NCBI GenBank assembly: GCA_018971365.1
Contig: JAGXAZ010000004.1
Coordinates: forward strand, 1-38,886
DNA from: Gammaproteobacteria bacterium
GTDB lineage: Bacteria > Pseudomonadota > Gammaproteobacteria > Natronospirales > REEB76
Length of the DNA: 38,886 nt
Direction of reading: 5' to 3'
Positions 2,962 through 22,078 of this stretch are shown here, one piece after another. Position 1 is the first letter of the stretch; each line of letters starts with the position of its first letter. A program made the translations under genes and the position numbers. The notes under the pieces are model-generated. The model ran no database searches and was not told the origin of the DNA. It worked only from the letters and a program-made list of their open reading frames with translations.

Positions 2962-4161
2962 TCAGAGCCCTACCGGGTGCAGCCAGTAATATCCGGCCAA
3001 TCCCAGCAGGGCTCCCACGGATACGATGCTGACTTCAGGCAGCTTGGGCCATTTGAGAATTACCGCCATGCTGGTAATGGCAATAACACCTGTCAGTACA
3101 TCCCCGATGGCGGCGGTGGCGATTAGGATGCCGGTACCGAACAAGGCGCCCACCACGGCGGAAATAATTCCTTGCAGAAATCCCTGCAGATAACGATTGG
3201 CGCGGTAGCGTTTTAGCAGCGGTGCGGCCACGACCGTCAGCAGCACCGCGGGCGCGAACATCCCCACCGTTGCGACCAAGCCGCCTTGGAAACCGTTGAG
3301 CAGGTAGCCGACAAACGTGGCGGTGATGACGACGGGGCCGGGGGTAATCATGCCGATGGCCACGGCGTCAATGAATTGACGGTTTGTCAGCCAGTGGTAC
3401 TGGTCTACGACGTAGACCTTGAGAAATGGGGCGATGACCAGGCCGCTGCCGAACACTAGAAAACCGGTCTTGAAGAAAAACACGAATAATTTGCCGGAGG
3501 TACTGCTCAGCCAAGCACTCGGCAGGGCCAGCCAACCGCCGCCGGCTGACGACATCGTCGCGGACGACGGGCTTTGTGTTGGAGGGCGGGGACCGGCGAA
3601 TACCAGACAGCCCAGCAGGCCCGCAATCAGGAACAGGCTGATGAGCTCCTGTTTGAAGGCGAGGGTGATGACCGCCGCGACCGTGGCGAACAGCCAGGCG
3701 AGCCGCCGGGTCTTAAGGGTTTTGCGGCCCAGTTGCCAGCAAGCCTTTAAGATGAGTGCGACGATGACGGGCGCCACCCCGTAAAAGATCGCTTTGACCT
3801 CCCAGGCACCGGTGAAGTGCACATAGAGAGCGGCAGCCAGCGTCACGATGAGGAAAGGCGCAAACGCAAAGGTTACGCCGACCGCCAGCGCCCCGCGGAT
3901 CCTAAAGCGGGCATAGCCGCAATAAACCCCCAGTTGGTAAGCCAGGGGTCCGGGACAGGCGGTCGCGAGCGCCAGACCGTCTTCGTATTCGGTTTCCGTG
4001 AGCCAGCCGCGTTCCTCCACCAGATCCCCCCGCATGTGCTGGGCCAAGACCACGGGGCCGCCAAATCCCAGTGCCCCCAATCGCAGGAAATAGCGGGACA
4101 TTTGCCACAGGGTTACCCTGCCCTGGAGTCCGTCGAGGCTGGGATCAGTGCAGGTAGGCAT
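2962..4161 (-). CDS. chrA: Chromate transporter ChrA (CHR family)
   Basis: 399 aa; two-half CHR architecture, LRLGALGFGGPVVLAQHM and FFKTGFLVFGSGLVIAPFL...ITPGPVVITATFVGYL. Confidence 0.93.
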   Translation of the reverse strand: MPTCTDPSLDGLQGRVTLWQMSRYFLRLGALGFGGPVVLAQHMRGDLVEERGWLTETEYEDGLALATACPGPLAYQLGVYCGYARFRIRGALAVGVTFAFAPFLIVTLAAALYVHFTGAWEVKAIFYGVAPVIVALILKACWQLGRKTLKTRRLAWLFATVAAVITLAFKQELISLFLIAGLLGCLVFAGPRPPTQSPSSATMSSAGGGWLALPSAWLSSTSGKLFVFFFKTGFLVFGSGLVIAPFLKVYVVDQYHWLTNRQFIDAVAIGMITPGPVVITATFVGYLLNGFQGGLVATVGMFAPAVLLTVVAAPLLKRYRANRYLQGFLQGIISAVVGALFGTGILIATAAIGDVLTGVIAITSMAVILKWPKLPEVSIVSVGALLGLAGYYWLHPVGL

Positions 4162-4201
4162 GCACGTCTGCTCTAGGGTTCCAAGGAATTGAATTAATCA
4201 T

Positions 4202-4213
4202 TACATATATGTA
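4202..4213. promoter_or_regulatory. Palindrome TACATATATGTA in the chrA-chrB divergent intergenic region; possible operator
   Basis: Perfect 12-bp palindrome 11 bp upstream of the chrB ATG, overlapping a candidate -10 (TTGAAT 4189-4194, 17-bp spacer, TATCAT 4212-4217). Confidence 0.6.
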
Positions 4214-4224
4214 TCATCAGTTAC

Positions 4225-5199
4225 ATGAATTATGCAAGCCCTTGGCTGACCCTGATTACCAGCCTACCCGGCCAAAACACAGCCGCCCGCGTGCGGGTAT
4301 GGCGTGCACTTAAGGCTTCCGGCGCTGCTGCGTTGCGCGATGGGGTATACCTTCTGCCCCGGACTTTGCAGAACGAGACTGCATTTCGGGAGCAGGCACA
4401 AGAGATCGGGGCTGCAGGAGGGGCCGCCCACATCGCCGAGTATCGTCCCCTCGAGGGGGAAGAACCCGGCGAAGATCTGACGCGTCTTTTTGACCGCACC
4501 GCGGAATACGCCGACCTTCTCCAGCGGCTGGATGCCTTCAAACGCGAATTGGTCTCGGCATCGGAAGCGGAGGCACGCCGTGCCATCGCCGCGCTGCGCC
4601 GCGAGTTTGCCGCGGTGATGGAGACGGATTTTTTCCCTGGTCCTTCTCAGGCCCAAGCCGAGCAGGCCCTGGCGGATGCCGAGGCCGCTCTCAATGCGCG
4701 TTTCTCACCGGACGAACCGCATGCCGCAGCGGGAGCGCTGCGCCGGCACGCGCCAACCGATTATCGGGGCAAGATCTGGGCGACGAGGGCGCATCTTTGG
4801 ATTGATCGCGTCGCGTCCGCCTGGCTGATCCGCCGTTTTATTGATCCGCAGGGACGCTTCCTCTGGCTCAAAGACGCCCGCCGCCATCCAAAAAATGTCA
4901 TCGGGTTCGATTTCGATGGGGCCGAATTCAGCCACGTGGGCACGCGCGTCACTTTCGAGGTCCTGGCGTTCAGCTTCGGGCTGGAAAACGATCCGGGAAT
5001 CATCCGGCTCGGTGCCATGGTGCATTACCTGGATGTGGGGGGCGTGCCCGTCCCTGAGGCCGCGGGCTTCGCAGCCATCATGGCCGGAGCGCGGGCCCAA
5101 GCCGTGGATGACGATGAGCTACTGACGGAGATCAGCAAGACCCTGGATTTCTTGTATACCGCCTATTCAGAAGGAGGACACCCTACATCAAACACTTGA
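4225..5199 (+). CDS. chrB: Chromate resistance protein ChrB
   Basis: 324 aa; N-terminal WLTLITSLPGQNTAARVRVWRALKASGAAALRDGVYLLP and C-terminal WIDRVASAWLIRRFIDPQGRFLW typical of ChrB; divergent from chrA. Confidence 0.9.
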   Translation: MNYASPWLTLITSLPGQNTAARVRVWRALKASGAAALRDGVYLLPRTLQNETAFREQAQEIGAAGGAAHIAEYRPLEGEEPGEDLTRLFDRTAEYADLLQRLDAFKRELVSASEAEARRAIAALRREFAAVMETDFFPGPSQAQAEQALADAEAALNARFSPDEPHAAAGALRRHAPTDYRGKIWATRAHLWIDRVASAWLIRRFIDPQGRFLWLKDARRHPKNVIGFDFDGAEFSHVGTRVTFEVLAFSFGLENDPGIIRLGAMVHYLDVGGVPVPEAAGFAAIMAGARAQAVDDDELLTEISKTLDFLYTAYSEGGHPTSNT

Positions 5200-5260
5200 T
5201 TGGATTTCATGTTAGCCATCGTAAAGCATCCCGTAAAACAAACGCTCGCGCGTAGGAGGT

Positions 5261-5776
5261 ATGACCATGTCTCGTCAATCTGACAGCCTACTGGCATCTA
5301 CTGAACGGCAAAAACATCCAACACACAAACATGGGAATCTTATCGCTGTGATGACGCTGGCCGCGACGGTCTTGTTAGGTCTAACCGCAATGTCTGCCTA
5401 TGCGGCAGAACCCGGGGCCGCAATGCCAAAGCCACAAGCCCATGTCTATATATACACGGTTCGCTGGGTCTCAAGAGAGGGCGGTCCCGCCAAAGCCTAT
5501 AAAAAATTCGGGGAAACATATGGATTTGAGCCCAGTACGATCGTCGTCACCGAAGGAGAAGAAGTCACCCTGACCTTCCGCAATCTGGAAGGTGGACCAG
5601 ATGATCTACACACCTTCACACTGCCGGCCTATGACATCGACCGTTCGATTCCACCTCTGCAGACCGTGAACGTGATCTTCAAAGCCGACAAGGCTGGGGT
5701 CTTCCCTTTCCACTGTGATAATCACAAACCCTGGATGTCGGGTGAGCTGATCGTGCTGCCCGCACCAGCTACCTGA
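5261..5776 (+). CDS. Secreted type-1 cupredoxin-domain protein
   Basis: Signal-like N-terminus; DDLHTFTLP and FPFHCDNHKPWMSGELIVLP give His/Cys/His/Met copper ligands. Confidence 0.75.
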   Translation: MTMSRQSDSLLASTERQKHPTHKHGNLIAVMTLAATVLLGLTAMSAYAAEPGAAMPKPQAHVYIYTVRWVSREGGPAKAYKKFGETYGFEPSTIVVTEGEEVTLTFRNLEGGPDDLHTFTLPAYDIDRSIPPLQTVNVIFKADKAGVFPFHCDNHKPWMSGELIVLPAPAT

Positions 5777-5800
5777 CCGGGTCCGGCGGATGGGTGGTCG

Positions 5801-6862
5801 ATGAAAATCAAATGCCACTATGCGCGTGCTGTGAGCCTGATGGGCGTGACGTTAGGTTTTTTGGTTGTTGCGCCTACCACTCTGGCTGCAAAGCTGCCGC
5901 TGGTCACCGTGGCAAACGTCCCGCTACCCGGTGGCACGAGCCGGTTTGACTACCAGAGCCTGGATGGGGCCGACCATGTGCTTTTTATCTCCCACATGGG
6001 GGCAGGCCGGGTGGTGGTGTTCAACACCACCACCCGGACCGTGACGGCGGATTTGCGGGGCTTTCCTGAAGCCACAGGTGTCACGGCCGTTCCCGACCTG
6101 CATCGGGTGTTTGTCAGCGTCACCGGTCACTGGTGGGATCAAGCTTTCTTTGGCGGGTCTATTGTCGTGCTGAACAGCACCACACTGAAGACGCTTGCCA
6201 GAATTCCGGCGGGTACGTTTCCGGATGGCAGCGCCTATGTGCCGGCGGTGAAGCGGCTGTTTGTGTCAGACGAGGCCGGTCGGACCGAAACGGTCATTAA
6301 TACCGTCACAAACCGTCGCATCGCCACGCTCCCGCTCGGCGGCGAAGCGGGTATGACGGCTTACGATCCGGTCACAGGGCATGTTTTGGTAAATGTGCAA
6401 ACCCTTGACGAACTGCTGGCCATTGACCCAGTGACCAAGCAGATCGTGGCCCGGTACTCACTGCCTGCGACCTGTCATCATAATCACGGTCTGCTGCTTG
6501 ATGTTCCATCACGGCTGGCGTTTATTGCTTGCGATCACAATGCGCGGCTCTTGGTCATGAACCTTAACCACATGCAGGTGACCGCAGTCCATCGTGTCGG
6601 GCGCGATCCCGATGTGTTGGCAATAGACCTTAAGAGACAGCGATTGTATGTCGCCAGCGAGAGTGGGGTTGTCTCAGTATTTCATATCACCAAGGACGGA
6701 TTACGCAAGCTGGGTCAGGGGTATGTCGGAGATGATGCCCATTCCGTTGCGGTCGACCCATCAACAGGACTGATTTATCTTCCCATTGAAGATTTTCATG
6801 GCAAACCTGTCTTGAAAATCATGCGTTATCAGATCACTGGCACCGCTGACGGTAGGCAATAA
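5801..6862 (+). CDS. Exported YncE-like beta-propeller protein
   Basis: Signal-like N-terminus; repeated blade motifs (VVVFNTTTRTV, IVVLNSTTLKTLARIPAG, LLAIDPVTKQIVARY); CHHNHG motif. Confidence 0.7.
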   Translation: MKIKCHYARAVSLMGVTLGFLVVAPTTLAAKLPLVTVANVPLPGGTSRFDYQSLDGADHVLFISHMGAGRVVVFNTTTRTVTADLRGFPEATGVTAVPDLHRVFVSVTGHWWDQAFFGGSIVVLNSTTLKTLARIPAGTFPDGSAYVPAVKRLFVSDEAGRTETVINTVTNRRIATLPLGGEAGMTAYDPVTGHVLVNVQTLDELLAIDPVTKQIVARYSLPATCHHNHGLLLDVPSRLAFIACDHNARLLVMNLNHMQVTAVHRVGRDPDVLAIDLKRQRLYVASESGVVSVFHITKDGLRKLGQGYVGDDAHSVAVDPSTGLIYLPIEDFHGKPVLKIMRYQITGTADGRQ

Positions 6863-7792: not shown

Positions 7793-8238
7793 AGTGGGTG
7801 ACACGCGAGCGGCCCAAGATCGACCGGATCGCCTGTCCGTGGCTGATCGTGCGGTTCATCGATCCGGCGGCTGAGTTTCTCTACGTGCCTGCGGATCGGG
7901 TGCTGAGCGCGGCGGCGGCGCAAAATGCGGTTCCCTATGACATTCCCGGTGTGGAGTTGTCCCATGCGGGGGAATTCTGCAGCTTCGATGCCTTCCTGAA
8001 AAAGTACGGTCTGGATGAACCCGCACTGCAGAGACTCGCCAGGATTGTGCGTGGGGCCGATACCGGACGGTTGGATCTCGCGCCCCAGGCGGCCGGCCTC
8101 TTGGCCCTGTCACTTGGTCTATCGCACATTTTTCCGGATGATCACACGCTGCTGCAGCGCGGAATGGTGTTTTATGACGCCCTCTATGCCTGGTGCCGGT
8201 CGCTGCAGCATGAAACTCACGGCTGGCCGCCCCAATGA
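7789..8238 (+). CDS. ChrB C-terminal-domain protein (chromate resistance)
   Basis: 150 codons with ATGA overlap to the upstream gene; IDRIACPWLIVRFIDPAAEFLYVP matches the C-terminal half of ChrB. Confidence 0.82.
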   Translation: MKWVTRERPKIDRIACPWLIVRFIDPAAEFLYVPADRVLSAAAAQNAVPYDIPGVELSHAGEFCSFDAFLKKYGLDEPALQRLARIVRGADTGRLDLAPQAAGLLALSLGLSHIFPDDHTLLQRGMVFYDALYAWCRSLQHETHGWPPQ

Positions 8239-8239
8239 C

Positions 8240-9090
8240 CTGAATTGCGGTGCACCCAGTCCATACGCGCACTAAAGTAGACCTGCATTTTGGCATCCCG
8301 GGTGAACAGCTTGTGTTCAGTCATCACCTTACCCCGGTCATGGGTCAGCGATAGCTTCATTTGCTGCAGTAACGTCTTGAGCTCCCGGACGAATGCCGTA
8401 CGCACAGCTTTAGCGTCACGGTTCTTAAGCGGCACCGGGATAAGGGTGTACGTGGTGCGTTCCACCAGCGTGCTCACTGCGGACTGGTTGCGGCGGCCCA
8501 TGAGCAAGTCGCCTTCCCGAGGCCCTCACGCTCCGTTGTACCACGGCCGTCGGACGCTCCTCGATGCTGAGCATCTCCGGAATCCGCCCCCGCCGCCGCC
8601 GTTGGTGATGCTGGCGCAGGCAGGCGAGCAGCTCCTTGCGCAGCGCTCCGCGCGGCAGCACATACAGGTAGGTGTAAATCGCCTCGTGGGAAATGCGCAT
8701 GCGGGGATCGTCGGGTTAAGTCTGTCTCAGTTCCTGAGTAATCTGCTCCGGCGAGTGGGATCGGCGCAAGCCTTGCAGTACAAAGTCCTTCAACCACGCC
8801 TGCCGCTTCAACCGCCGGCTCACGCCATGCCGGCGACGTTAATGCGTGCGGCTCTCCGCCACCGCCGCCCGATACCACCCCACGCAGTACGGCATTGCGC
8901 CGTACTTCTCGCGATACGGTCGAGGCCTGCCGACCCAAGTGCTCTGCGATTACCCGTAATGACTGCCCCCGTGCCAGCCCCCGACTCAACTCCTCACGCT
9001 CGATCAAGCATAATCGCCGATACTTTGACACGCAACACCTCCTTGGACACTCTATCTGGGTGTTGCACTGAGAACTTGAGACCGCCCAGT
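8240..9090 (-). mobile_element. Decayed, truncated IS30-family element
   Basis: KYRRLCLIEREELSRGLARGQSLRVIAEHLGRQASTVSREVRRN (frame 8474..9106), MRISHEAIYTYLYVLPRGALRKELLACLRQH (8425..8700) and MGRRNQSAVSTLVERTTYTLIPVPLKNRDAKAV (8217..8507) in different frames; the end of the DDE domain is missing; TIR-like GGTGTTGCACTGAGAAC near 9060. Confidence 0.85.
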
Positions 9091-9265
9091 CTTTCAATAT
9101 GAACACGCGATTCGTGAACCCGAGCCGTGTGGAAGCGAAAATCCGTCAAGACGGACATGGTTTGAGCCGAGTGCTCAATCGACACTCCTGGATCCGATTC
9201 AGCATCGCTCAACACCATCGAATTGCCGGCTGGATACAATGACAAGGCAGCGTTCATGGAACTTC

Positions 9266-9631
9266 CTACGCGGGCCACCCTGCCGGCACCCGGTTCGCCA
9301 GACGGCTGAGCAGGGCTTTACAAGTCTGGACCGCTCGGCGGCGTGCGGCGAGACGGGCAATGAGTGTTGTCTGCTGCTGCTGCAGCGCCCGGCAATTACC
9401 TTTATCCAACGCCTGAAAGAAATCTTTCAGTTCGCCCAGCAACAGGCCTGATTGCACGGCGGCATGGATCAGCCGGAGCCGTTCGACACAGGCCTGATCG
9501 TATTGTCCGTGCCCGCCGTTCGTCGTTTTGCACGGCGCAACCAGACCGAGCTGCACGTAGATACGGACCTGGTGCACCGAAACGCCGGCGCGCTTGGCCG
9601 CTTCGGAAATCGGATAGGCTGCTTGTGCCAT
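9266..9631 (-). CDS. merD: MerR-superfamily protein, MerD-like
   Basis: YPISEAAKRAGVSVHQVRIYVQLGLVAPCKTTNGGHGQYDQACVERLRLIHAAVQSG; MerD-like C-terminus; downstream of merA. Confidence 0.7.
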   Translation of the reverse strand: MAQAAYPISEAAKRAGVSVHQVRIYVQLGLVAPCKTTNGGHGQYDQACVERLRLIHAAVQSGLLLGELKDFFQALDKGNCRALQQQQTTLIARLAARRRAVQTCKALLSRLANRVPAGWPA

Positions 9632-9652
9632 GGCTTTGAACCGCAGCCGGGA

Positions 9653-11005
9653 TCAAAACATCGAGCCGAGGTCGGAACCTACCGTAGGATAGGCACTGAC
9701 CATTTTTTTAAGGTCGGTCGTCTTCAGACCAAGCCGTATGGCGAGTCCGAAGAAGTTGATGAGTTCTGCGTACTCTGGACCGATCAGATGGGCTCCAAGG
9801 ATTTCGCCCGTCTGCGCGTCGGTAACGATTTTCGTCGCCGCGCAGGTCTCGCCGACTCGCATATTGGAATACCAGCCGCTGGTGTCGGTAAACGCAACAT
9901 GGATTTCGCGGCCCTGATGTTTCGCTTCCGCTTCCAGCATACCGACACGCGCCAGCTCGGGGATGGTGAAAACCACCGTCGGGACGCCCCGATAATCCGG
10001 CGTGGTGTGATTCCCCTTGAGCATATTGGAAGCCGCCACTTTGCCTTCGAACACGGCTACCGGGGTGAGCGGCGCTCCCGGCGTGTCGGCAGCATCACCC
10101 GCAGCATAGATGGCAGGATTCGAGACGCTTTGAAGATAGTCGTTCACCATTACGCCCTTGTCACCAGCTTTTACGCCCACGGCCGCAAGGTTCAAATTCT
10201 CAATAGCGGGCATGCGCCCCGCGCCGTGCACGACGAGATCGACCATCCAGTGCTGGTCGTTCCCGTCTTTCTCGGCTGAAACGGTAAAGCCGTCACCGGT
10301 CTTTTCAATGGATTTGAGTTGCGTGTTGAGATTGATCTTGATGCCGACGGCACGGCTGCGTTCTATGAGCTTATCGACAAGATCAGGGTCAAAGGCCTTG
10401 AGCGGCTTGCTTCCATGATCGAGGATGATGACCTCGCTGCCGGCACGTGCAGCGATATGAGCGAACTCAAAGGAAATGAAGCCGCCGCCGACGAACAGGA
10501 TGCGTTTCGGCAGCGCTTCAAGTTCCATGAATCGAGTACTGTCGACCAGATACTCTGTGCCGGGAACATTGAGCGGGCGCGGTTTGGCACCGGATGCGAT
10601 CAGAATGTATCTGCCTTCCAGGCGGGCTCCATTGACTTCGATGGCATGGCGATCCACGAAGCGTGCCGGGCCGTGAAGGGTGGCAATGTCATGGTGTTTC
10701 AGACCGTCCTCTATCCTGCGCGGCATTTTCTCGGTGAAGGATCGTTTGAAAGCCACCAGATCAGCCCAGTCGATCCTGAGTCCAGCATCTTCGATGCCCT
10801 TGCCGCGCATCAGGCGGGCGGCGTCAATGATCTCCGCTCCCCGGCGCAGCATCTTCTTCGGGTCGCAGCCCCTGAGCGCGCAGGTGCCTCCATAAGGCAG
10901 TTCGTCCACTACCGCAACGGACCAGCCGGCCGCGGCGCATTTGTTGGCCGCACTGACGGCGGCCATGCCCACGCCCAGAACGATGAGATCGAATGATTGA
11001 CGCAT
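9653..11005 (-). CDS. NAD(P)/FAD-dependent pyridine nucleotide-disulfide oxidoreductase (MerA/glutathione-reductase-like)
   Basis: 450 aa; FAD site, redox motif GGTCALRGCDPKK, VVFTIPELARVG, C-terminal dimerisation domain. Confidence 0.85.
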   Translation of the reverse strand: MRQSFDLIVLGVGMAAVSAANKCAAAGWSVAVVDELPYGGTCALRGCDPKKMLRRGAEIIDAARLMRGKGIEDAGLRIDWADLVAFKRSFTEKMPRRIEDGLKHHDIATLHGPARFVDRHAIEVNGARLEGRYILIASGAKPRPLNVPGTEYLVDSTRFMELEALPKRILFVGGGFISFEFAHIAARAGSEVIILDHGSKPLKAFDPDLVDKLIERSRAVGIKINLNTQLKSIEKTGDGFTVSAEKDGNDQHWMVDLVVHGAGRMPAIENLNLAAVGVKAGDKGVMVNDYLQSVSNPAIYAAGDAADTPGAPLTPVAVFEGKVAASNMLKGNHTTPDYRGVPTVVFTIPELARVGMLEAEAKHQGREIHVAFTDTSGWYSNMRVGETCAATKIVTDAQTGEILGAHLIGPEYAELINFFGLAIRLGLKTTDLKKMVSAYPTVGSDLGSMF

Positions 11006-11106
11006 ATCGAATCCTTAGATATGAGTTGGGCTGATGGCTGACCGCTGACGACTCCCCAGCGGGTAGTCGGGTCCGGTACCAGCGTTTATCGGGATCTGCT
11101 CCTCCC

Positions 11107-12750
11107 TCACCCCGCACAACAGGAGAGTTTGGTCACATCCATGCTGAAGGTCTGGGCACAGAGCTTGAGCCCCTCGGCCATGACCAGATAAGGGAACATC
11201 GTATCGGCGAGCTGCTGCACCGTCATATGCTGGCGGATGGCGAGTGCGGCGATCTCGATGATCTCACCGGCTTCGGGAGCAAGAATCTGCGCCCCGAGCA
11301 GCCGGCCGCCGGTGGTCTCCGCCACCAGCTTGATGAAGCCCTGGGTCTCGAAATTGGCCAGCGCCCGCGGCACGTTGTCCAAGGTCAGCGTGCGGCTGTC
11401 CACGGCGAGACCCTGTTCCCCGGCCGCCGCTTCGGTAAGACCTACCGTCGCGACTTGCGGATCGGTAAACACCACCGCCGGCATGGTGGACAGATCCAGC
11501 GTAGCGTCACCACCCAACATGTTGATGGCCGCGCGCGTACCCCCAGCCGCCGCCACGTACACAAACTGCGGATGGCGGGTGCAGTCGCCCGCAGCGTACA
11601 CCTGTTCAATCGAAGTGCGCAGATGATCATCCACGATAATTGCGCCGTTGCGCTCGATTTTCACGCCGATGGCATCGAGTCCGAGGCCGGCGGTATTGGG
11701 ACGGCGGCCCGTCGCCACCAGCAAGCGGTCGCCGGTGATGAGCTCGCTGCCGATATCCACTCCAAACTGGCTGCCGGAATGATGGACGGATTTGGTCGTG
11801 ATTCCGGTAAGAATGCGCAAGCCTTCTCCCTCAAGAAACGTCGCAAGCTCCGCGCCGAGGGCCTCGTCTTCACGCGGCAGCAGCCGGGGTAGAAGTTCGA
11901 TCACGCTGACCTTGGAGCCCAAGCGCAGGAATGCTTGCGCCAGCTCTAGCCCGACCGCCGAACCGCCGAGTACGATGAGGTGTTCGGGGAGGTCTTCTGC
12001 CACCAGCGCTTCGGTCGAGGTCCAGTAGGGGGTGTCCCGCAGACCGGGAATGGATGGCACAGCCGGTGAAGCCCCCGTGGCAATCAGGACGCGATCCGCC
12101 TGCACGTGCGTTTCGGAACCGTCGGGGCGTTTTACCGAAAGAGCAGTCGGTGCAGTGAAACGCGCCTGGCCCTGAAGCAGGTTGATGTTGGGGTTGTCGT
12201 CGAGGTTGTGCTGATACTTGGCCTGCCGCAATTCGTCCACGCGCGCCTGTTGCTGCGCCACAAGACGCCGGCGCTCCAGGACCGCGGTCGCCTTGCCAAG
12301 GCCATTAAAAGGATGATGCTCCATCTGGTGTGCCACGTGTGCGGCCCGGATCATGATCTTGGAAGGCACGCAGCCAATGTTGACGCAGGTGCCGCCCAGC
12401 GTACCCTGCTCGATCATCGTCACCTGTGCACCCTCGCTGGCGGCGCGTAAAGCGCAAGCAAAAGCTGCCGAGCCGCTGCCGATGATGACCACTCGCAGGC
12501 CCGACTCCCCGCCGGTGTGCGCGGGTGGAATGGACTCGGGACCGAGCGATTCCGCTCCATAGCCTTTCGCCCGCACCGCGTTGAGCAGGCGCTCGACAGG
12601 AAGGGCCTCGCGAAGCTCGACCTTCGCCTGGGCGTCAGGAAAGGAGACCCGGGCCGTGACCCCGGGAAGTGCATTTAAGGCTTTTTCAATCGTGCGCGCG
12701 CAGTGGTCGCAGGTCATGCCAGTGATGCGCAGAGTCGTGTTCTGTGCCAT
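11107..12750 (-). CDS. merA: Mercuric reductase MerA with N-terminal HMA domain
   Basis: 547 aa; GMTCDHCARTIEKAL, GGTCVNIGCVPSKIMIRAAH, C-terminal vicinal Cys pair LSCCAG. Confidence 0.95.
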   Translation of the reverse strand: MAQNTTLRITGMTCDHCARTIEKALNALPGVTARVSFPDAQAKVELREALPVERLLNAVRAKGYGAESLGPESIPPAHTGGESGLRVVIIGSGSAAFACALRAASEGAQVTMIEQGTLGGTCVNIGCVPSKIMIRAAHVAHQMEHHPFNGLGKATAVLERRRLVAQQQARVDELRQAKYQHNLDDNPNINLLQGQARFTAPTALSVKRPDGSETHVQADRVLIATGASPAVPSIPGLRDTPYWTSTEALVAEDLPEHLIVLGGSAVGLELAQAFLRLGSKVSVIELLPRLLPREDEALGAELATFLEGEGLRILTGITTKSVHHSGSQFGVDIGSELITGDRLLVATGRRPNTAGLGLDAIGVKIERNGAIIVDDHLRTSIEQVYAAGDCTRHPQFVYVAAAGGTRAAINMLGGDATLDLSTMPAVVFTDPQVATVGLTEAAAGEQGLAVDSRTLTLDNVPRALANFETQGFIKLVAETTGGRLLGAQILAPEAGEIIEIAALAIRQHMTVQQLADTMFPYLVMAEGLKLCAQTFSMDVTKLSCCAG

Positions 12751-14724: not shown

Positions 14725-14976
14725 GTGAAGTACAAATGGCTAGCTGCGGGATTGCTTGGGAGCGCATTCGCGGTCTTTTGTTGCGCGCTTCCCGTTCTGA
14801 CTATGGTCAGCGGGGTGGGTTTGTCGCTGCTCAGCATCATCCGCGGCTTTTGGCCTTTGGCATTGATTGTCCTATTGACTGTTCTGGCCGGCGGTATTGC
14901 GTTGAAGGTGTACCAGTCCAAATCAGAGTGCTGTCAACCCGGTTCTGGCGACGCCGCGTCAAGAGATGAGTTGTGA
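14725..14976 (+). CDS. MerF-like small membrane protein, putative Hg(II)/metal uptake
   Basis: 83 aa, GTG start with upstream GGAG; first-TM Cys pair FAVFCCALPVLTMVSGVGL, second TM, then ECCQ. Confidence 0.6.
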   Translation: MKYKWLAAGLLGSAFAVFCCALPVLTMVSGVGLSLLSIIRGFWPLALIVLLTVLAGGIALKVYQSKSECCQPGSGDAASRDEL

Positions 14977-15654: not shown

Positions 15655-16047
15655 TTAGTGGCTATCCAGTCGCTCCAGGATTGGGCAGTTATCCGAGTTC
15701 CCGGAGCACAAGTTCAACAGCAGTGTCAGTTCGGCCTCCATCGTCTTTAAGGTGCGGATCTGCTTTTGCATGTCTGCGCACTTGCGCTGAGCCATGGCGC
15801 GGATGGCCTTGCTGGATTTTAACGGATTCTCGCGCAATTTCAGCAGTTGGCCGATTTCCGCGAGACTAAAACCAATACTCTGGGCGCGCTGCACGAACTT
15901 GAGACGCGCCATGTCCTTTTCTGAGTATGTACGTCGGCCCGAGCGGTTCTTGCCAACTCGCGGCACCAGTCCGATCTTCTCGTAATAGCGGAGTGTGTCG
16001 GGCGATAGGCCAAGCACTTCTGCTGTTTTACCGATCAGTTGTTCCAC
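15655..16047 (-). CDS. MerR-family metal-responsive regulator (ZntR/CadR/PbrR-like)
   Basis: GTG start with AGGAGG; GKTAEVLGLSPDTLRYYEKIGLVPRVGKNRSGRRTYSEKD; Cys at RKCADM, NLCSGNSDNCPIL. Confidence 0.82.
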   Translation of the reverse strand: MEQLIGKTAEVLGLSPDTLRYYEKIGLVPRVGKNRSGRRTYSEKDMARLKFVQRAQSIGFSLAEIGQLLKLRENPLKSSKAIRAMAQRKCADMQKQIRTLKTMEAELTLLLNLCSGNSDNCPILERLDSH

Positions 16048-16049
16048 GA

Positions 16050-16319
16050 TCAACCCTCCTTCTGCATTTGGCTGTTGAGTAAAGCGCGCAGGGCTTTTTT
16101 CTCCCAACGAACGGCGGGCAGAAGCTTTCCGGAGATCGCAAGTGCTGGCGTTGCCTTTACGCCGAGGTCCACCGCGCGTTCCAGGTGTTCAATGACATTA
16201 CGTTCCTGGTAGCTGACGGCATTTGCCGGCAGTTCAGAAATTGTTGCCTGGACATGTGCGCGTGCCGCGTGGCAATGAGGGCAGTAAGGCGAAAAGAATA
16301 ATTCAACATCGAGCGGCAT
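16050..16319 (-). CDS. Thioredoxin/glutaredoxin-fold protein with CPHC motif
   Basis: MPLDVELFFSPYCPHCHAARAHVQ...NVIEHLERAVDLGVKATPALAISGKLL. Confidence 0.8.
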   Translation of the reverse strand: MPLDVELFFSPYCPHCHAARAHVQATISELPANAVSYQERNVIEHLERAVDLGVKATPALAISGKLLPAVRWEKKALRALLNSQMQKEG

Positions 16320-16436
16320 GCTAATGATTCCGTGGTTCCTGCTCAGGAGTGTATACCCGGATTCCATGGCTCACCTGAACCATGAGTTGGCTGTATTTGC
16401 TTGTGTAGAAATGCTCATCCAAAATCTGTGTGTGCA

Positions 16437-17621
16437 TCATCGGGCCACCACTGTGCCGGAGTACATGTTGGCGCCACAATGGAATGTGTAACGTCCAGGG
16501 TGGGGTGCATAAAGGACCACAGACCGCGTCTGCCCCACGGGCACGGTGATTTCAGTCGCGTGGCCGTCGGTACCGAGGCCCTCGAAAATGGTGCGTAACA
16601 GGCATCCCCCGATATGATCAGTCACCGCCACCTCGACTGCTTGCCCGGCAGGTATGTCGAAGACCCGCGGTTGGTAGGGATACCCGGTTGTAGCGGCACC
16701 TTCGGTCAAATGATACTGGGGTCTCGGCACAGCGGTTGACACTGCCGCTGCCGAAACCGGCTTGAGATAAGCGCCGTAGTTCTGACCAAAGTAATAGAAC
16801 AGAAACACACCGGTACCGATGAATAACACCGCCGTGATGCGCATAAGCCATGGACCCATGCGCCGCAGGGCGGAGAATACCCGACGACCGAGTACCATCA
16901 TCACGACCACCAGAAACGCAATGGCAAAACCGTAGGCGAAAACTGAAAGTGCGGCGAGCGCATAATTACCGGCCACCAGCGGCAACAGCAGAATGCCGAG
17001 GAAGATCGGCAGCGAGCAGGTGTGCGAGGCGGCGCCGTAGGCAAACCCGAAAGAAAAGAGCGTGCGCTTTCTGGTCACCCCGACCGGAGCGGCGCCGGTT
17101 TCGCGTCGGGCGTAGAGCCGATTGGCCGGATTCCAGCGCTCCAGGAACGACAGCAAGCCAGTGCGCCCCAGCAACATCAATACGCCGAGCAGGAGGAAAA
17201 CGGCGCCGACCACCGGGATGAAATAGACCAAATAGTTGTACGCGACGTTTCCGACCAGGCCGATGATCGCCCCGGCGATGGCATAGAACACCACGATGCC
17301 GAGCGCGACCAGCACAGCCGCGAAAACCAGAGGCCGCGAGAAGTTGTGGATGTCCTTGCCGGGCGGCGCGCCGACGGTGAGGTAGGCCAAGAAGGCCGGT
17401 GTGATGGCGATGCTGCACGGCGAAAAGAATGACGCCGCCCCGCCAATCAGCGCCAAACCGAGCAGGAGTGCGGGCGGCAATGTGCGGCCCTGCTGAAGCA
17501 GGACGCCCGCGTGCAGATAAAGAAAATAGCCCGCGACGCCCATCAACAGGAGGACCGCGGCCGCACTCGCGGCCCGAATCCAGTCGTGGCTTCGCGTGCT
17601 CGATGTCGTGGCTGGTGGCAT
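16437..17621 (-). CDS. CcdA/DsbD-type membrane protein fused to a C-terminal cupredoxin-like domain
   Basis: GGAASFFSPCSIAITPAFLAYLT and AYGAASHTCSLPIFLGILLLP match the two CcdA Cys motifs; C-terminus GGCLLRTIFEGLG...GRYTFHCGANMYSGTVV. Confidence 0.8.
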   Translation of the reverse strand: MPPATTSSTRSHDWIRAASAAAVLLLMGVAGYFLYLHAGVLLQQGRTLPPALLLGLALIGGAASFFSPCSIAITPAFLAYLTVGAPPGKDIHNFSRPLVFAAVLVALGIVVFYAIAGAIIGLVGNVAYNYLVYFIPVVGAVFLLLGVLMLLGRTGLLSFLERWNPANRLYARRETGAAPVGVTRKRTLFSFGFAYGAASHTCSLPIFLGILLLPLVAGNYALAALSVFAYGFAIAFLVVVMMVLGRRVFSALRRMGPWLMRITAVLFIGTGVFLFYYFGQNYGAYLKPVSAAAVSTAVPRPQYHLTEGAATTGYPYQPRVFDIPAGQAVEVAVTDHIGGCLLRTIFEGLGTDGHATEITVPVGQTRSVVLYAPHPGRYTFHCGANMYSGTVVAR

Positions 17622-17896
17622 CACGAGCTCCTTTCGTCCGAGGTTTGCCGGGTTTTTGGATGCGCCATCGGTGCCTTGGTCTCGGTCGTGTAGCCAAGCA
17701 GGTCCAGTCGGTTGACGATGACCGATTCCTCAAGTTTGGCAGGATCGAACAGTACCTCGATGCGTTGTGAGGAGGCATCGGCGCGGACTTGCTGAATACC
17801 CTCGAAGGCTTTCAGGACGCGGACCACGCGTTGCTCGCAGCTCTCGCAATGCAGTTTCTGATCTCCAATCACTTTTAATGCAACGGACTTGAACAT
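17621..17896 (-). CDS. Small HMA-type metal-binding protein
   Basis: MFKSVALKVIGDQKLHCESCEQRVVRVLKAFEGIQQVRADASSQRIEVLFDPAKL; TGATG overlap with the downstream gene. Confidence 0.82.
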   Translation of the reverse strand: MFKSVALKVIGDQKLHCESCEQRVVRVLKAFEGIQQVRADASSQRIEVLFDPAKLEESVIVNRLDLLGYTTETKAPMAHPKTRQTSDERSS

Positions 17897-18068
17897 GGCT
17901 GTCTTCTCGTCTGACAGTGGTGGCAAATGGGCGGTGCCCGGCAGGATCAGGTCCTGGTTGTAATAGCGTCGCGTCGCTCGTGACGGCCGGTACGGTCCCG
18001 GCGTCCCGGCCACTCGCTCCAGCGACGACTATTGCTTTCGCTGCGGCACGCCCTGCGTTCGGAAACCA

Positions 18069-20540
18069 TTACTTCGCACGGTTTCCTACACCAATGGCTT
18101 TACGCCCCGGCGCGGGCGCGCTTCCTACGCCGCCCACCGCGCCGAAGAACAATTGCGGCTGGCCCCACAGCGAATTGATGAAAATCGCCGTGACGCTACC
18201 GGCCATCGCGATCATCGCCCAGACCGGATAAATGATGCCGGTGGCCGCAACCGGCACGCCGAGGCCGTTGAACAGGAACGCCAGCGCGATGTTTTGCACC
18301 ATCTTACGGTAGCCGCGGCGGCTGATGGCATAGGCGTCGAGCACGCCCGCGAGGCGGGTGTTCAGGATAATGACATCGGCGGAGTCGATCGCGATGTCGG
18401 TGCCGCTGCCCATCGCGATGCCGACATCGGCCTGCATCAGCGCCGGCGCATCGTTGATGCCATCGCCGACCATCGCGACGCGTGCCTGGGTCTGGAGCTG
18501 GCGGATCGTCTCCGCCTTGCGTTCCGGCAACACGCCGGCGTAAATCTCTTCGATACCGGCTTGGGCCGCCATGCGCCTGGCCGCGCGTTCGTTGTCGCCG
18601 GTCAGCAGCGCGACCCGCACGCCCGCGGCCTGTAGCCGTTGTACGGTTTCGGCTGCGTCCGCACGCAGCGCATCGCCGAAGGCGAGTACGCCGAGCAGCC
18701 GACCGGCGCGGCCAAGCGCGATCACCGTCCGTCCGCTTTCTTCCAGGCGGCTGATGGCGTCCGCCAAAGGCACAAGATCAATGCCGCGGCCGGCGAGAAA
18801 CGCCGGGCTGCCTGCTATCAGCTCCTGATCGTGCAAACGCGCGACCACGCCCTTGCCCGCGATTGCATTGAATGACTCGACAGCCGGGATGTCCACTCCC
18901 GCGTCGAATGCGGCCTTGGCGACCGCCTGCCCCAGCGGATGCTCGGAAGCCGCTTCCACTGCCGCTGCCAGCGAGAGCAGCGTGTCCTTGTCGACGTCGT
19001 GCGGCACGATTTCGCGCAACGCCGGCTTGCCCTCGGTCAGCGTGCCGGTCTTGTCGAACACGACCGTGGTGACGCGACGCAACCCTTCGAAAGCTTCGCC
19101 GGTACGCATCAGAATGCCGCGCTCGGCCGCCTCGGCTGCGCCGCGCACGATCGACAGCGGCGCCGAAATGCCTACCGCGCACGGATAGCCCATCACCAGC
19201 ACCGACAGGCCCGCGAACACCGCGCGCTGGATGTCCAACGGATACCCTAACAGTACCGGTCCAACGAGCCAGGCAATGAATGCGATCGCCGCAACGGTAA
19301 GCACCGTGGGGGTGTAAACGCGCAGCACCCGGTCAACGATGTGCAGCAAGCCGGGCTTGAGCGCCTGCGCGTTTTCGACGCTGCGAATCACCTGCCGCAG
19401 AAAACTCTCCTCGCCGACCGCCGTCACCCGCACGAGCAGCGTACCGGAACCGTTGATGGCGCCGCCGGCGACGCGCGCGCCCGCGGCTTTCGCTACCGGC
19501 AGCGGCTCGCCGGTAATCAGTGATTCGTCCACCGCCGAGCGACCTTCGATGATCTCACCGTCCACCGGAATACGCTCACCGGGGCGGATGCGCACGCGGT
19601 CGCCCACGCGTACCTCTTCAATGCGCACGTCGGTCTCGCGCCCGTCGCGCAGCACACGTGCGGTGTCCGCTTGCAGGTCGAGCAGCTTCTTGACCGCCTG
19701 TGAGCTGCGCGTCTTGACGATCAGCGACAACCACTCGGAGAAGATGTGATAAGTCAGGACCAGTACCGCGACGGCAAAAAACGGCGCGGTCGGATAACCC
19801 GGCAGCCGCGTCGCGAGGCCGATCAGACCGCCGCTCAAGCCGGCGAGCGCACCGATTTCGACCAGCACGTGCTGATTGAGGATACCGCGGCGCAGCGCCT
19901 GAAACGCCATGCGCAGGATGTGCGCGCCGAGGCCGAAGATCAGTGCCAGCGCGAGCAGACCGGTAAGCCACGGCGTTGCCTCGCCGAGCGTGCCATTGAG
20001 TCGCAGGAAAAACAGTGCCAGCCCCGGTGCGGCTAGTGCCAGTGCCCCGCCGGCGGCCTGCACGACACCGCGATTCTTCACCACCGCGAACGCAAACGCG
20101 ATCAGGCTCGCAAACACGAACCCCGATAAGCCCAGTGTCCAGCCGCTCGCCGGATTGGCGATCAGGCCGATGGCCGCCAGGCTCGCTCCGAGCGCCACCA
20201 GAAACCGATTGCGCTCGCGCGCCAGCGCGCGTTCCTGCTGCTCGAAAGGTTCCACCTTGCGCGGGTCCGACAGCATGTAGCCAATGTCGGTGAGGATGTG
20301 CATCAGCTTTGCGGCGTCGGTCTTGCCGGGATCGAACTCGACCAGCGCCTGTTCGTGGGTCAGGCTCACGGCCACCTTGTGCACACCGGACTGGCGCCCC
20401 AAGGCTTTTTCGATGGTGCCGGTGCACAGTGAGCAGTGCAGCCCACCGATATGGGCGCGCACACGGCGGCGATCCGCGCGACTGGTGGGCTCATCACTCC
20501 AAAAGCGAATATCTTCAGATAAGGCGTGTGTGGAACTCAT
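18069..20540 (-). CDS. P1B-type heavy-metal ATPase with YPC in place of CPC
   Basis: N-terminal HMA ([16 protein letters not shown]), [49 protein letters not shown]6 [21 protein letters not shown] at 20540 with upstream GGAG. Confidence 0.93.
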
Positions 20541-20580
20541 GTGGGCTGTCTCCTGTTTTCGACCGTTTGCTTTGAGGACA

Positions 20581-20611
20581 AGCCTAGATGATGGAGTGAA
20601 CTCCATGTCAA
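20581..20611 (-). promoter_or_regulatory. MerR-family-type promoter/operator upstream of the ATPase
   Basis: Minus strand TTGACA-TGGAGTTCACTCCATCATC-TAGGCT; 19-bp spacer with perfect dyad ATGGAGT-TC-ACTCCAT. Confidence 0.82.
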
Positions 20612-20852: not shown

Positions 20853-20930
20853 GTTCGCTGGTTGCAGATTATTCCGAAGATTTATCGCCAAGTGATCCCA
20901 GAAACCGTTCTTGATACATGGAGCACGCTC

Positions 20931-21461
20931 ATGACCATTCGGTACCGCTCATCCAAATTTATGCTCTGGTTTAGTTTATCCTTGGCAATGCTGATACCCG
21001 TTTTCGCATACGCCAATCCCAAAGCCGGGGCTGTGGCACCCGCCGCCACATTCACAAGCCAGCAGAATAAGAGCCTGTCACTAACGGCCTATCACGGCCA
21101 GAAGGTCATGCTGTGGCTGTTCTCCACCTGGTGCCCCAGTTGCCAGGCGGGTCTCGGGGCACTCGCCCAGGAACAGCAAGCCCTCGCGGCCGATCATGTA
21201 CGGCTGATTGTGCTGGAGAACTACCGCAACGGCGGTTACCCCGGCCCGACCATGCAAGAGTTGTTGAACCAGTACGCCAGTACCGTGAAAGATGCGCCCA
21301 ATTGGACCATTGGCAATGCCACGCGTGAATTGGCTGCGGTGTATAACGCGAAGTCGTATCCCGATATTTATTATCTTATCGGCGCGGATGGCAAGATTGA
21401 GACCGTCGGCAGCGCACCGTCCGCCAGCATGAACGAGATCCTCACATTTGCACGGAAGTGA
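20931..21461 (+). CDS. Exported TlpA-like thioredoxin-fold protein
   Basis: Signal-like N-terminus; LWLFSTWCPSCQAGLGALAQEQQ; SYPDIYYLIGADGKI. Confidence 0.8.
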   Translation: MTIRYRSSKFMLWFSLSLAMLIPVFAYANPKAGAVAPAATFTSQQNKSLSLTAYHGQKVMLWLFSTWCPSCQAGLGALAQEQQALAADHVRLIVLENYRNGGYPGPTMQELLNQYASTVKDAPNWTIGNATRELAAVYNAKSYPDIYYLIGADGKIETVGSAPSASMNEILTFARK

Positions 21462-21556: not shown

Positions 21557-22078
21557 TTGCCCATGAAGAATCTGTTACCCGCTGCCCGCGAAGTGTTTTC
21601 GTCACGTGCCTCATGGATCATCGGCATCGTGAGCTTCGTGGTGTTCCTTGTTATTTACCTGCTGACCCTGCCCGCCACGTTTACCGGCGGCGTGATTGGA
21701 TTCAAGGCACTCGCATTCGTGACACCCGAGCTCATCGGGTGGTCGGTGCTCATGGCGGCCCTTTTGGGCGTACTGATGCCGATGACGGTGTATCTGCTGC
21801 GGCGCGGGTATAAGGCGCGCGGCGCTGCCGGCACGGCAGCCGGCGGACTGATCATCAGCCTGGTCACGCCCCTGCTTTGCTGTACTCCGATCCTGCCGAT
21901 CCTGTTCAGCTTTCTCGCCGGCTTCCTTCCCGCGCTGGCGGGTAGCGCGGGCGGGGCTGTACAGGGATTCCTGGCGACCCACGAATGGCTGTTCTTTACC
22001 GTGGCCACCGCGATCCTGTTACTTGCGCTGTACCAGAATGCCAAGCAGGTTGTAAAAGGCGCTTGCTGCACCGTCTGA
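21557..22078 (+). CDS. Multi-TM protein with two CC motifs, putative metal transporter
   Basis: 173 aa; LVTPLLCCTPILPILFSFLAGF and C-terminal VVKGACCTV. Confidence 0.65.
   Translation: MPMKNLLPAAREVFSSRASWIIGIVSFVVFLVIYLLTLPATFTGGVIGFKALAFVTPELIGWSVLMAALLGVLMPMTVYLLRRGYKARGAAGTAAGGLIISLVTPLLCCTPILPILFSFLAGFLPALAGSAGGAVQGFLATHEWLFFTVATAILLLALYQNAKQVVKGACCTV

Follow-up and report, generated by a model that had tools for sequence, protein, structure and literature searches.

In the current study, a 38,886-nucleotide stretch of DNA from a gammaproteobacterium of the order Natronospirales (contig JAGXAZ010000004.1 of assembly GCA_018971365.1; hereafter the window) was analysed, in which five genes on the minus strand, spanning positions 15655-20540, encode a P1B-type heavy-metal ATPase, a small HMA protein, a CcdA-type membrane protein fused to a cupredoxin domain, a thioredoxin-fold protein and a MerR-family regulator. 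Judging from sequence comparison, we regard it as an even call that this cassette is a MerR-switched soft-metal resistance system in which a transmembrane thiol-reducing arm is dedicated to the P1B pump; the cassette itself is real and conserved, and may plausibly act as a functional unit. Its unusual component would be an electron-fed cupredoxin within a metal-resistance cassette of otherwise known type, by which thiol redox is tied to metal export within one regulated unit.

Gene content and regulation of the cassette

An initial annotation had read five minus-strand genes in the above order, and both the coordinates and the Pfam families (E1-E2 ATPase with HMA, HMA, Cupredoxin_1 at a weak 24 bits, Thioredoxin_3 and MerR) agree with it. 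The ATPase gene (18069..20540; 823 aa) starts at the ATG at 20540, a longer open reading frame of 903 aa being merely upstream read-through. It is followed by the gene for the small HMA metal-binding protein (17621..17896; 91 aa, CESC motif, PF00403 match of 41 bits), which is predicted to be cytoplasmic, and by those for the CcdA-cupredoxin fusion (16437..17621; 394 aa), the thioredoxin-fold protein with a CPHC motif (16050..16367; 105 aa, or approximately 89 aa from an internal ATG near 16320) and the MerR-family regulator (15655..16047; 130 aa), the last with a GTG start behind AAGGAGGG. The junctions had been described as tight, which is true of two of the four, namely the TGATG overlap between the HMA and fusion genes at 17621 and the 2-nt gap between the thioredoxin stop and the merR start, and not of the other two, as 172 nt separate the ATPase and HMA genes and 69 nt the fusion and thioredoxin genes. 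An imperfect inverted repeat (CATGGTTC...GAGCCATG; 16340-16385, minus strand) in the gap preceding the thioredoxin gene could represent a separate operator or a hairpin for trx-merR; an Rfam scan of 13.0-23.5 kb returned zero matches.

The expectation that the first gene lies behind a MerR-type operator was likewise substantiated, since a promoter with a -35 of TTGACA, a 19-bp spacer and a -10 of TAGGCT (20581..20611, minus strand) precedes the ATPase gene and holds in its spacer the dyad ATGGAGT-TC-ACTCCAT (20591-20606), 71 bp ahead of the ATPase ATG. The dyad core, GGAG-N4-CTCC, stands in the same layout before the ATPase gene in six of the other loci compared (L003, L006, L007, L008, L009 and L021), and related dyads with a 20-bp spacer are present in L004 and L020. 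Operator-type sites at a loose score are not rare in the window, with four equal or better on the minus strand (this one included) and twelve on the plus strand. The regulator itself scores 106.6 bits against the NCBIfam CueR model, under the cut-off of 147.4, and does not qualify as a CueR equivalog; it does carry Ser at the position of CueR Ser77, a residue that marks monovalent-ion sensors (PMC11591864), together with paired loop cysteines spaced C-x6-C as against C-x7-C in CueR.

The CcdA-cupredoxin fusion and the thioredoxin

Neither Pfam (DsbD_TM included) nor NCBIfam recognised the CcdA half of the fusion, and a search of the PDB with its profile returned nothing credible. Profile-profile alignment against ordinary CcdA proteins using hhalign yielded a probability of 97.1% (E 5e-11), placing C69 (FFSPC69) on the SPC of transmembrane segment 1 (TM1) and C202 (HTC202) on the TPC of TM4 which make up the CcdA redox pair. 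The protein thus possesses the six-TM core with one cysteine each in TM1 and TM4 that defines the CcdA/DsbD family, and the fusion relatives all retain both classical cysteine positions, as does the window protein. Seven membrane segments were read from hydropathy and the alignment, these being the CcdA six plus one at the N-terminus. Lys and Arg residues are concentrated in the cytoplasm-facing loops (eight in 153-205 and four in 246-257) with none in the opposite loops, a positive-inside pattern from which the C-terminal cupredoxin domain is predicted to lie outside the membrane.

A profile of ten cupredoxin sequences found pneumococcal CupA as its best match in the PDB (E 8.7e-4), and a model of the domain (predicted local distance difference test, pLDDT, 84) gave 4f2e, CupA with Cu(I), as its best Foldseek match (E 2.9e-7; template-modelling score 0.69/0.76), the fold neighbours also including CuA domains. 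The cupredoxin domain carries C340, H381, C382 and M386. The first and third correspond to C74 and C111 of CupA and are invariant in the ten sequences, while M386 corresponds to CupA M115 and the position of CupA M113 is occupied by Ala, Gly or Glu, and never by Met, among the relatives. CupA converts Cu(II) to Cu(I) by means of C74 and C111, more rapidly so in its M113A variant, and these cysteines are reset from a source described as currently unknown (PMC5646241). The fusion would supply the re-reduction of the two cysteines for which CupA has no known source, and as such constitutes a concrete candidate answer to where CupA-type chaperones obtain their electrons, in a form which can be cloned as a single gene.

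The thioredoxin-fold protein matches 1fo5 (E 6e-11). A signal peptide or TM segment was sought in this protein and none was seen, and it is likely to be cytoplasmic.

The YPC group of P1B pumps

The ATPase matches TIGR01525 at 556.5 bits (cut-off 346) and displays the features of P1B pumps in the broad sense, i.e. an E1-E2 core, DKTGT and an N-terminal HMA domain (40 bits) with a CxxC site, CSLC. Its TM6 motif is YPC, as in 22 of 22 members of the group assembled here, as opposed to the CPC of CopA (P1B-1) that is present in nine CopA/SilP controls; its TM7 (N-x6-FN-x4-P) and TM8 (M-x2-SV) motifs are close to those of CopA (N-x6-YN-x4-P and M-x2-SS) but altered. A maximum-likelihood tree places the 22 YPC pumps together on one side of a branch (97/97 support) that separates them from ten CPC pumps, and the group spans bacteria and haloarchaea, with plasmid-encoded members from Cytobacillus, Deinococcus and haloarchaea being approximately 45-54% identical to the window pump. 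YPC pumps, most of which databases label 'cation-translocating P-type ATPase', can be regarded as a well-supported P1B group that is recognised from its metal-site motif and its partners instead of its annotation. A broad sampling of genomes with the pump as query (E<=1e-180), limited to the top two candidates of each genome and therefore no census, returned one distant relative. The same genome also encodes an ordinary CPC CopA and a TPC pump, making the YPC protein an extra pump.

YPC pumps on record are Sulfolobus CopA and CopAL6 (PMC4541151, PMC11082258), for neither of which a CcdA context is reported and which were compared by description rather than by sequence. CopAL6 carries YPC in TM6 and an HMA domain at each end, and pumps with such a second, C-terminal HMA are also encoded in L034 (3566-6058), L027/L055 and L005 (5412-7919). 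Deletion of YvgX in Halobacterium leads to copper sensitivity (PMC3600143), and this protein is a tentative candidate for a further YPC pump.

Distribution of the fusion cassette

Counting the window, seven genomes yielded nine loci with the CcdA-cupredoxin fusion, the hosts being Natronospirales relatives, Rhodanobacteraceae/Lysobacterales (G762 and G765, with two copies each) and a metagenome-assembled genome labelled Acidobacteria. A YPC pump is encoded close to the fusion in all nine, mostly with the HMA gene alone between them, although it is next door in L005 and separated by two MFS genes in L006; thus the joint occurrence in other genomes on which the initial annotation had made its proposal depend holds at every fusion locus found. 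The small HMA gene directly precedes the fusion in eight of the nine (window, L003, L004, L006-L009 and L056), the exception being L005, where an HMA gene precedes the pump and a second HMA domain ends it. The positions of the merR and thioredoxin genes vary: L008 and L009 have them upstream in divergent orientation, in L056 they precede the other genes on the shared strand, and in L003, as in the window, they close the cassette; L004 and L006 have another merR gene after the fusion and no thioredoxin gene was found in these two loci. In L007 the fusion gene (8001-9182) is interrupted by a single in-frame TGA at residue 163, and the reading frame of the pump is likewise disrupted, reflecting decay or assembly error in this metagenome-assembled genome.

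In G263 the same order is seen three times with CcdA and cupredoxin as separate genes; these MerR/HMA-ATPase-CcdA-cupredoxin copies (L021, L022 and L023) are identical and lie on three contigs, two of them near contig ends, which suggests that the unfused unit was recently mobile. The fusion is accessory, being present in 3 of 19 genomes of its order and, when the split form is counted, in 3 of 369 of the class sample. A plasmid search with the fusion protein gave no match and a scan of viral contigs gave none, so that neither plasmids nor phages yielded the fusion itself.

Pairing of YPC pumps with CcdA-type proteins on plasmids

Among plasmid loci found through the ATPase, a CcdA-family gene lies near the YPC pump in 9 of 13, as opposed to none of nine CPC CopA/SilP control loci searched with the same profiles (Fisher p = 0.0014). 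Eight of these were apparent from annotation (Paraburkholderia, Nitrobacter, Marinobacter, Cupriavidus, Methylobacterium, Thalassobaculum, Leisingera and Cytobacillus; 8/13 versus 0/9, p = 0.004), and the ninth, in Deinococcus (L033), is a CcdA split into two pieces that was found by profile; as the plasmid loci are related by descent and transfer, these p-values overstate the evidence. Viewed in reverse, 10 of 12 plasmids with a Cupriavidus-type CcdA have a YPC pump within a few kb. Plasmids from other classes and one from Bacillota also carry the set of ATPase, HMA protein, CcdA, thioredoxin and metalloregulator, in differing orders. Several distinct CcdA types adjoin the same pump, for which reason the pairing seems to have had more than one origin, and the sequences suggest that CcdA-type proteins were repeatedly recruited by YPC pumps. 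The plasmid cassette ATPase-HMA-MerR-Trx-CcdA-MFS (Paraburkholderia and Cupriavidus, with variants in Nitrobacter and Afipia) provides the same five functions with a pump 64-67% identical to that of the window, but its CcdA is separate, of another subfamily and without a cupredoxin, and its regulator is of the Cys type.

Relationship to known systems

The claim that this is not a standard merTPCA or cop operon was upheld by the defining features of each. A simple CopA operon was rejected on account of YPC in place of CPC and the altered TM7 and TM8 signatures; a mer operon because the cassette is without merT, merP and merA, the merA region standing 3 kb away on its own; and a Scs system because there are no periplasmic alpha or gamma domains and the thioredoxin has no signal. 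By the features tested, the cassette resembles a cross between CupA-CopA and ScsB-ScsC while being a member of neither. Pneumococcal CupA-CopA likewise combines a membrane-bound cupredoxin having two reducing cysteines with a P1B Cu(I) pump, and the fold and the C74/C111 positions match; CupA, however, has only a membrane leader and is described as drawing copper from the cytosol and from CopY (PMC5646241), whereas in the window CcdA bears the cupredoxin as a fused domain with a predicted location outside, the M113 ligand is replaced and the pump is not a CopA. In the Scs system a DsbD-type carrier, ScsB, keeps the periplasmic Cu(I)-binding protein ScsC reduced and confers copper tolerance (PMC8900818), and a membrane electron carrier thus serves an outside copper-binding partner as is proposed here; where the window has a single, directly fused cupredoxin, the Scs system has the periplasmic alpha and gamma domains of ScsB and, as a protein of its own, the periplasmic thioredoxin ScsC, and no P1B pump is among its four genes.

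In metallicolous Mesorhizobium the P1B ATPase gene cadA is immediately followed by a CcdA gene that is co-induced with it by Zn/Cd, the role of CcdA being left open (PMC3668242); that pump is for Zn/Cd and a cupredoxin fusion was not reported. For the gene combination, searches of the open-licence literature returned this case alone, and neither the CcdA-cupredoxin fusion nor the five-part cassette was found described there. The initial annotation's description of the system as undescribed consequently does not extend to its parts, given this CcdA beside a P1B pump and the YPC pumps already on record, while the fusion and the whole kit do seem to be undescribed.

Proposed mechanism and alternative explanations

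From the conserved cysteines, the folds and families, the operator and the co-occurrence read in the sequence, we infer the following mechanism. Metal entering the cell would cause MerR to activate the operon, as the operator and gene layout imply; the small HMA protein and the HMA domain of the pump, both with CxxC sites, would carry the metal and hand it to the pump, and the YPC ATPase, by analogy with its family, would export it. Electrons would pass from the cytoplasmic CxxC thioredoxin to C69/C202 of CcdA and on to C340/C382 of the outside cupredoxin, a route proposed from the invariance of these cysteines and in accord with the predicted topology. Once reduced, the cupredoxin may bind, and perhaps reduce, the exported metal before being reset by CcdA. 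Rather more tentatively, the arm may be a self-renewing reductase-chaperone, running from thioredoxin through CcdA to the fused CupA-type cupredoxin with no soluble partner, which serves a distinct YPC pump class that repeatedly recruited CcdA-type partners across bacteria. As to the metal, Cu(I)/Ag(I) is marginally favoured, the CupA-like site, the Ser at the CueR Ser77 position and the P1B-1-like pump body all pointing that way; Hg(II) or an organomercury compound is a clearly less likely second candidate, with Au or another metal ranked after these.

Several observations weigh against this interpretation. The operator core is unlike a CueR box, and the residue at the Ser77 position is Arg in L007, L008 and L021 and Cys in L004, L006 and several plasmids, such that the sensed metal may differ by locus. 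Judged by its motifs the pump is without the CopA metal-site signature (YPC for CPC, FN for YN, SV for SS), and a plain copper role would be redundant given the ordinary CPC CopA of the same genome. An AlphaFold2 model of the whole fusion, built from seven sequences, reached a pLDDT of only 55 and was discarded as unreliable. CopAL6, a possible member of the present group and the only YPC pump for which a test in E. coli was found, made the cells less resistant to copper and increased their copper content (PMC11082258). Finally, several plasmid CcdAs beside YPC pumps show CPxC-T-P in TM4 and no longer possess the cysteine of TM1 (L017 9211-9903, L018 10004-10699, L020 9149-9841 and L034 6055-6777), for which reason the usual route of electron transfer cannot apply throughout; these four proteins are possibly metal permeases rather than redox carriers.

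The alternative that fares best, although we consider it unlikely, is a mercury module in which pump, HMA protein and thiol arm act on Hg(II) or organomercury next to the mer operon, exporting it or passing it on, with the thioredoxin and CcdA repairing mercury-blocked thiols. A region on the minus strand of the window (9269-12750) encodes MerA (over the NCBIfam cut-off), a glutathione-reductase-like flavoprotein and a MerD-like helix-turn-helix protein, the merA and merD-like genes lying 3-6 kb from the cassette, and merA also adjoins the second G765 copy (L056). Of the 13 YPC plasmid loci, 7 have mer genes at a distance of up to 4.5 kb and 9 at up to 5.5 kb, with hosts from haloarchaea to Cytobacillus, as opposed to none of the nine CPC controls (Fisher p = 0.010 and 0.0014), several of which sit with copper genes instead. 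These loci are, however, non-independent, three haloarchaeal ones being near copies, mer genes accumulate on metal-resistance plasmids anyway, and in the DNA examined no MerA is encoded at fusion loci besides the window and L056. Moreover, the regulator has Ser rather than Cys at the Hg/Zn-type position and the cupredoxin matches a copper chaperone.

Two further explanations are improbable to a similar degree. According to one, the pump sends Cu(I) out to load periplasmic cuproproteins while the CcdA-cupredoxin and a TlpA-type protein keep acceptor thiols reduced, in the style of oxidase assembly; the divergent TlpA-like gene in the window and L003, the order TlpA-SCO-CcdA-MerR-CcdA-like-ATPase in Thalassobaculum and the CuA domains among the fold neighbours fit this scheme, but the patchy accessory distribution, the plasmid and duplicated copies and the MerR control do not, and most loci lie amid metal-resistance rather than oxidase genes. 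According to the other, the CcdA-like protein is a soft-metal permease or docking subunit whose cupredoxin is its periplasmic metal acceptor, no electrons being carried; the plasmid CcdAs without a TM1 cysteine beside the same pump favour this, whereas the retention of both classical cysteines throughout the fusion relatives and the CxxC thioredoxin encoded alongside in most argue against it. That the genes are chance neighbours in a metal-resistance island without joint function is very improbable, since even in a window rich in unrelated metal genes (chrA, merA, arsR and two merR genes) the same partners recur in distant genomes in differing orders, with fused domains, a shared operator and negative controls.

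Neighbouring genes

Divergent from the cassette and outside its conserved core, a gene on the plus strand (20862..21461) encodes a TlpA/ResA-like exported thioredoxin (CPSC; AhpC-TSA, 35 bits), a possible periplasmic partner or extra acceptor for CcdA electrons. Its counterpart beside the cassette in L003 is 74% identical, and none was seen in the other fusion loci. The flavoprotein of the merA region is 51% identical to one encoded downstream of the Methylobacterium plasmid YPC cassette (L028 9743-11086). Two plus-strand genes (14725-14976 and 21557-22078) encode small membrane proteins that recall MerF/MerT in having CC plus P within a TM segment and CC at the C-terminus, and neither of the two has a Pfam or NCBIfam match. 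Further from the cassette, positions 2965-6859 encode ChrA, a possible ChrB-like protein, a beta-propeller protein and a cupredoxin resembling NosZ/nitrosocyanin; L008 likewise has relatives of the propeller protein and of the gene at 4225-5196 flanking its cassette.

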